DNA of 64,000 nucleotides from the NCBI GenBank assembly GCA_022823725.1, contig JAJEHL010000026.1, positions 558,001 to 622,000 of the forward strand. The letters run 5' to 3'. The position numbers were made by a program, and so were the translations under genes. This stretch comes from Candidatus Latescibacterota bacterium (GTDB lineage: Bacteria; Latescibacterota; UBA2968). The notes under the pieces are model-generated. The model worked only from the letters and a program-made list of their open reading frames with translations. It had not been told where the DNA came from and made no database searches. Below, in pieces: positions 1,219 through 2,345 of this stretch (its first letter is position 1; every line of letters begins with the position of its first letter).

Positions 1219-1261
1219 TGATGCGCGTGCTATGCTTTCAATGGCGGAAAACGATGCATGA
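1205..1261 (+). pseudogene. HEPN toxin gene remnant (first 18 codons)
   Basis: ATG at 1205 overlaps the end of the MNT gene, as HEPN genes often do, and reads MNGIDDARAMLSMAENDA before TGA. This resembles the first helix of HEPN domain proteins (…EARRLL.KAE.D). None of the following sequence in any frame continues as a HEPN domain; the stop (ATGA) overlaps the start of an unrelated gene at 1258. Inference: a deletion or recombination removed the rest of the toxin and fused the operon to a new downstream gene. Confidence 0.5.
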
Positions 1262-2016
1262 AAAATAACCGCGATGATATCCAGAGCCTTGTCGATGCGT
1301 TTTCGACAGAACCCGTGTGTGTGGCTGACGCGCTGTCGGATGGGCGGTTTTTTCTGGATGAGAAATACGATGCCCTGTCCCGGCGTCTCGGTGAGCTGTT
1401 CTGGTTGCCCGTGTCACATGCTTATGTCGTGTTTTGTTATGCGTATAGCGCGTTGTTTGGTATTCCGGATTTTACGCGTGAGGCTCTGATGCGGCAGCCC
1501 GATCGGTTTTCGCAAAAGCGTTTGGCGCTGACGATTCGCTCGACGAGTGGTTTTGTTCTCGATGGCTTTGGATATGATCGCCGCACGGATCGGTATCGCA
1601 AGGATATTTATTGGCCCGGTCCGGTTATTCGCAGTGTGCATGTGGAGAGTGTCAGGCACAATAAGGCGCGGATTTCCAATCCGGCGATGGCGTATTTTGG
1701 ATATCATCTTATCCGCGCAGCGGAATGGCTTTCTGTGCATCGCAAGGATGCGGATTTTTCTCGACAACGTCGGCGGCACTATGATTTTGTTGGTGACTTT
1801 TTCCGCACGGCTGATTATCCTTTCCCTGTGGAGCGCGGAGAGGCGAGGGAGTTTTCGAGGCAGGTCGATGGGTTGCTCGCCGGGGATGACTGTGCGGATT
1901 GCTGGCATAACTTATGTCATGCAGCAAGAGAATTGGGCGTGGATCTCGATCTCGAAGATCTCGCGTCTTTTTTGCCCAGACGCACGGGTGTATTTTTCGG
2001 GCAAGCGGTTTTTTAA
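1258..2016 (+). CDS. Unknown protein, weakly oxygenase (MpaB/DUF2236)-like
   Basis: 252 residues, start ATG overlapping the TGA of the HEPN remnant (ATGA). No family is firmly recognised. The middle part (RSTSGFVLDGFGYD… then GPVIRSVHVESVRHNKAR…AYFGYHLIRAAEWL) loosely resembles the layout of the MpaB/latex-clearing oxygenase family (DUF2236), where a histidine in an 'R.MHA.VR' helix binds haem. The match is by eye and weak. The protein is mostly helical, with no signal peptide or clear membrane segment. The ATG has no own ribosome binding site, so translation probably depends on coupling to the preceding genes. It could be a start-shifted or N-terminally truncated protein created by the same rearrangement that broke HEPN. 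Confidence 0.4.
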   Translation: MKNNRDDIQSLVDAFSTEPVCVADALSDGRFFLDEKYDALSRRLGELFWLPVSHAYVVFCYAYSALFGIPDFTREALMRQPDRFSQKRLALTIRSTSGFVLDGFGYDRRTDRYRKDIYWPGPVIRSVHVESVRHNKARISNPAMAYFGYHLIRAAEWLSVHRKDADFSRQRRRHYDFVGDFFRTADYPFPVERGEAREFSRQVDGLLAGDDCADCWHNLCHAARELGVDLDLEDLASFLPRRTGVFFGQAVF

Positions 2017-2105
2017 TTTGTTATTATAGGAGGCATGATATGTCGAAGAGCCTCTTTCACAAGGTCGCTCACTCTTTTTTCACTCTTTTCAGAAGGAGGC
2101 GTCAC

Positions 2106-2345
2106 ATGGCCCGGGTAGAAATTGAATATTGTGCAGCTTGAGGCTATGAAACACAATCCGTCGGGATGACGGATCAAATTGTCAATGCGTTTAAGCAGGA
2201 TATCGAAGCTATTACCCTGATTCCGTCCAGCGGTGGTCGCTTTGAGGTTACGGTTGATGGCGAACTGGTGTTTTCCAAACTCAAGGAAAAACGCTTTCCG
2301 GAATACGAGGAGATTCAACCGCATATTCAAAGTCGGATTTCGTGA
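2106..2345 (+). CDS. SelW/Rdx-family selenoprotein (in-frame UGA, Sec12)
   Basis: ATG 2106 has a strong SD (AGAAGGAGG, 2091-2099). The frame reads MARVEIEYCAA, then TGA at 2139-2141, then continues open for 67 codons to TGA at 2343. The continuation contains TLIPSSGGRFEVTVDGELVF and KRFPEYEEIQPHI. Both sides are one SelT/SelW/SelH (Rdx) domain of normal size (79 residues), a thioredoxin-like fold whose redox motif is CxxC or CxxU. The UGA falls exactly at the second redox position (C9-A-A-U12). A perfect hairpin 14 bases after the UGA fits a bacterial SECIS. An in-frame upstream ATG at 2040 (with GGAGG) would add 22 residues, but the family starts at the later site. Partner proteins and physiological substrate are unknown; members are thought to act as small thiol oxidoreductases. 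Confidence 0.85.
2142..2175 (+). promoter_or_regulatory. Bacterial SECIS-like hairpin
   Basis: Seven perfect base pairs, ATCCGTC (2156-2162) with GACGGAT (2168-2174), close a loop GGGAT (2163-2167). The loop guanines lie about 22 bases from the UGA, within the 16-37 base range described for bacterial SECIS elements that bind SelB. The hairpin is inside the coding region, as expected in bacteria. Confidence 0.65.

Follow-up and report, generated by a model that had tools for sequence, protein, structure and literature searches.

In bacteria, SelB bound to a hairpin delivers selenocysteyl-tRNA to a UGA codon, and selenocysteine is inserted there. Selenoproteins of the SelW-like type, which carry a CxxU motif (PF10262/TIGR02174), became known in 2005 to 2008 as the most abundant selenoproteins of marine prokaryotes. 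In the selenoproteome of the Sargasso Sea they were the most abundant family, with 48 genes, and their function was described as unclear (PMC1088965). The GOS survey also gave its largest count for this family, with 427 selenoproteins, 56 Cys homologs, and the motif CxxU (PMC2398784). A survey of 2006 found few SelW-like Cys homologs in selenocysteine-using organisms (PMC1794560), which is the same pattern as we see here. The family is also listed in reviews of 2022 (PMC9312934) and 2026 (PMC13188914).

Here we describe a SelW-like gene in a stretch of 64,000 nucleotides (nt), called the window, from the genome (5.3 Mb, 98% complete) of an uncultured Candidatus Latescibacterota bacterium. The gene is an ordinary member of the family. 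Going by their listings, none of the three open-access papers that mention both "Latescibacter" and "selenocysteine" has such a finding.

A SelW-like gene with an in-frame TGA

The features of the locus are given in Table 1. With the TGA taken as a residue, the short-form product is MARVEIEYCAAUGYETQSVGMTDQIVNAFKQDIEAITLIPSSGGRFEVTVDGELVFSKLKEKRFPEYEEIQPHIQSRIS, in which Cys is residue 9 and U is residue 12; 67 codons follow, and the gene ends with a TGA stop at 2343-2345. This translation agrees with an earlier note on this DNA, which had proposed the motif C9-A-A-U12, 67 codons downstream, and a read-through product of 79 residues. The translations in the three frames also fit the note's remark that a standard gene finder would miss the gene or call two fragments.

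TABLE 1 Features of the SelW-like locus (positions are those of the window)
Feature	Position	Strand	Remarks
Uncharacterized protein, 252 residues, mostly helical	1258..2016	+	Constant upstream neighbor of the selenoprotein gene
AGGAGG ribosome-binding site for start 2040	2028..2033	+	Sequence
Probable in-frame N-terminal extension of the selenoprotein, MSKSLFHKVAHSFFTLFRRRRH	2040..2105	+	Frame, start, and ribosome-binding site kept in the genus; pN/pS
AGGAGG ribosome-binding site for start 2106	2094..2099	+	Sequence
SelW-like (Rdx) selenoprotein CDS, short form	2106..2345	+	79 residues plus stop; CAAU at residues 9-12
TGA codon for selenocysteine, in frame (short-form residue 12)	2139-2141	+	Conserved in homologs
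bSECIS hairpin	2156..2174	+	Core pairing 2158-2162/2168-2172 conserved; invariant G at 2164 in the loop (2163-2167)

The same note had claimed a family-length Rdx domain across the TGA, and this is what the curated models returned. PF10262 matched the short form over model positions 1-73 of 74 with 82.5 bits (cut-off, 22.6; E 2.5e-23), and TIGR02174 (CXXU_selWTH) scored 69.2 (cut-off, 34.2). The protein thus has the full-length domain above both cut-offs, and C9-A-A-U12 stands after the first strand, where Rdx proteins have CxxU or CxxC. The note had also proposed a comparison with the SelW, SelT, and SelH families, and here the SelW-related structures came out best. Among PDB sequences, the closest were structural-genomics entries related to SelW (2fa8, 2p0g, and others). 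An AlphaFold model made with 33 homologs had a pLDDT of at least 95 across most of the domain, and its best matches in a structure search were SelW-related crystal structures (TM 0.8-0.9 by target), with weaker matches to mouse SelW and thioredoxin. A thioredoxin-like fold with a CxxU motif suggests a thiol/selenol oxidoreductase. Most likely the product is a small protein of this kind, in which C-A-A-U would cycle between selenol/thiol and selenenylsulfide.

The bSECIS hairpin

The earlier note described a perfect 7-bp hairpin with a GGGAT loop, 14 bases after the UGA. The hairpin is present as described (AUCCGUC, 2156-2162; loop GGGAU, 2163-2167; GACGGAU, 2168-2174), with its loop 21 nt past the UGA, and it was predicted again when the region downstream of the UGA was folded; however, only the inner five pairs are conserved. 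These were formed in 92-100% of 63 distinct sequences, whereas the outer two pairs were unformed in 16/40 and 20/40 sequences. The position of the hairpin is conserved across homologs, and several of the inner pairs covary between phyla. In the loop, the second base was G in all 63 distinct sequences and the fifth base was T in 61 of them. Codons +7 and +9 had a third-position entropy of 0 in the same set, whereas neighboring codons varied freely; such frozen third positions in hairpin codons indicate that the coding sequence is constrained by the RNA.

The folding energy of the hairpin region was ordinary (z = -0.13). Since folding energy alone gave no support, we used comparative evidence. 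In a gap-light alignment of 40 distinct sequences, the covariation score was 0.338, above all 500 shuffles (mean, 0.153; sd, 0.019), and slid pairings gave at most 0.096. Five of the seven pairs were changed on both sides, in 36 cells versus 7.1 expected from shuffles. An Rfam scan of the window at gathering cut-offs returned three tRNA matches only and no SECIS family.

By analogy with established bacterial selenocysteine insertion, this hairpin, which lies inside the coding sequence, would recruit the SelB-GTP-selenocysteyl-tRNA complex, and the complex would decode the UGA at 2139 as selenocysteine during translation.

Selenocysteine machinery in the genome

A search of the genome found selA, selB, selD, and tRNA-Sec, as the earlier note had implied in crediting the organism with SelA/SelB/SelC/SelD. 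The selA and selB genes are adjacent on contig 31 (576 and 396 bits). The selD gene, on contig 25 (367 bits), has an in-frame TGA near its own N-terminus (VSCGGUASK) and is directly adjoined by tRNA-Sec, with anticodon UCA. Across the phylum, selB and the SelW-like gene were both present in 42/64 genomes and both absent in 18/64. A SelW-like gene without detected selB occurred in G032 and G063, both of which are fragmented genomes, and selB without a SelW-like gene occurred in G054 and G008.

Directly upstream of selD on contig 25 is a gene for a TlpA/AhpC-like protein (L016 2446-3269, - strand; PF00578, E 2.8e-15), which reads through a TGA in WASWUGC and would be a UxxC-type or Cys-replacing selenoprotein. 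This gene, selD, and tRNA-Sec likely form a selenium gene cluster.

Conservation of the TGA and alternative explanations

We found the SelW-like gene in 44/64 genomes of the phylum, at 48 places, and the residue-12 column held TGA in 48/48. A wider scan of 84,980 species genomes gave 42 loci, a set that partly overlaps with the first; 41 had TGA, and the sole Cys form (TGC) was the most distant locus, L116. One of the search peptides had Cys at residue 12, which left the scan open to Cys forms. The titles of the records named Candidatus Latescibacterota, Gemmatimonadota, Planctomycetota, Poribacteria, Chloroflexota (Thermomicrobiaceae, Anaerolineales, and Herpetosiphonaceae), Bacillota, and Acidimicrobiaceae. 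The first redox Cys was invariant among the 63 distinct sequences. No relatives of the gene were found in phage records or viral contigs, and a scan of the whole window for other genes reading through an in-frame TGA, judged by eye, gave only chance-looking candidates.

Could a Cys-containing Rdx gene have acquired the TGA by a nonsense mutation or a sequencing error? The codon is one base from a Cys codon, which is the sole point in favor, but the identical TGA appears in independent assemblies, many species, and several phyla, and the half of the gene downstream of it is under strong purifying selection (core pN/pS, 0.10). The residue at position 12 in orthologs was the check that the earlier note had named. 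TGA kept there and Cys in the lone exception leave in practice no room for a nonsense mutation, and we rejected both mutation and error as vanishingly improbable. Equally improbable is a genome-wide reassignment of TGA (for example, to Trp or Gly) in place of local recoding, in favor of which we found nothing. TGA serves as the terminal stop of the SelW-like gene and of many of its relatives, which rules out a general reassignment; moreover, the other genes of the window terminate normally, and the genome holds SelA, SelB, SelD, and tRNA-Sec.

What marks a selenoprotein gene was thus found here: an in-frame UGA conserved in homologs with a Cys alternative in one of them, a bSECIS shortly 3' of it whose small apical loop contains a G, and SelA, SelB, SelD, and tRNA-Sec in the genome. 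We conclude that 2106-2345 is almost certainly a genuine SelW-like Rdx selenoprotein gene, in which the UGA is recoded as selenocysteine by the SECIS and the host decoding machinery.

The probable N-terminal extension and choice of start

An ATG at 2040 opens a long form of the gene (2040-2345, 101 residues) with an extension of 22 residues. Judged from its sequence, translation from 2040 is likely. The working protein may then be the long form, or both forms may be made, in which case some of the SelW would have a basic amphipathic N-terminus for binding to a membrane or a partner; we consider this reading possible but hold it at slightly under an even chance. The question touches only the choice of start and leaves the selenoprotein reading as it is. 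The two starts each lie six bases past an AGGAGG. Within the genus, the frame, the start codon, and an upstream AGGAGG-like site are kept, and the frame survives a 6-nt in-frame indel (ten sequences). The extension had a pN/pS of 0.29 in frame versus 5.1 and 0.83 in the two other frames, by pooled pairwise counts, which are not independent. That paralogs in L066, L068, and L073 bear a different tail, at the C-terminus, also speaks for the long form. Against it, the extension was confined to most species of one genus and was absent from L037 (itself a member of that genus), from L038, and from other genera; its hydrophobic moment was no higher than that of shuffled sequences; and in the AlphaFold model it is disordered (pLDDT about 50).

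The paralogs just mentioned are second SelW-like copies, in G020, G022, and G023, and they also have the TGA. Their C-terminal tail, of about 35 residues, contains a CC pair and ends in a basic, hydrophobic stretch (SMGFRSLIAMLFRKAG in L066).

The upstream neighbor

The gene at 1258-2016 occurred at 17 places in 16 genomes of the phylum, and in 17/17 it was on the same strand and directly upstream of the SelW-like gene. These genomes belong to family f1, plus one genome of f2. The protein had no Pfam or NCBIfam match and no solved relative, and a fold search gave nothing significant; a weak globin-like match (E 1.2) was the sole one listed with a probability of >0.5. Because its CADC cysteines are not conserved among homologs, it is not obviously a redox partner. 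Its position suggests that it may be a partner of SelW. In a further step, which we regard as speculative and rather unlikely, SelW in one genus would be made in two forms from two starts, with the longer one directed by its basic N-terminus to a membrane or a partner and working with the 1258-2016 protein. If true, this would be the first dedicated partner for a bacterial SelW.

One copy of this gene, in L044 (G019), contains an internal TAG. In G036, the SelW-like gene and its upstream neighbor occur twice, on two contigs (L074 and L028); given its 7% estimated contamination, this duplicate may reflect a mixed bin.

Comparison with known systems

The locus holds nothing new as to the principle of decoding. 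It adds a Latescibacterota class to the selenocysteine-using organisms. It is also a clean example for annotation: comparison alone is enough to prove this short gene, which a UGA interrupts. Both the upstream neighbor and the added N-terminus offer starting points for finding out what SelW does in bacteria.

Compared with the bacterial SelW-like selenoproteins described previously (PMC1088965 and PMC2398784), the window gene has the same domain, CxxU motif, and marine occurrence, and likewise a SECIS that follows directly and has a G in its small apical loop. Nothing essential differs; the window gene has in addition the probable genus-specific N-terminal extension and the constant upstream neighbor. 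Against NF041051 (SelTWH_Campy equivalog), the SelT/SelW/SelH (seleno)protein of the Campylobacter type, it matched 69/70 model positions (E 1.3e-23) but scored 83 bits versus the equivalog cut-off of 88, which supports membership in the family but not assignment as this equivalog. With the Cys-containing Rdx crystal structures (2fa8, 2p0g, 3dex, 2obk, and 2oka), the window protein has its fold and sequence family in common, but it has selenocysteine in place of their second redox Cys.
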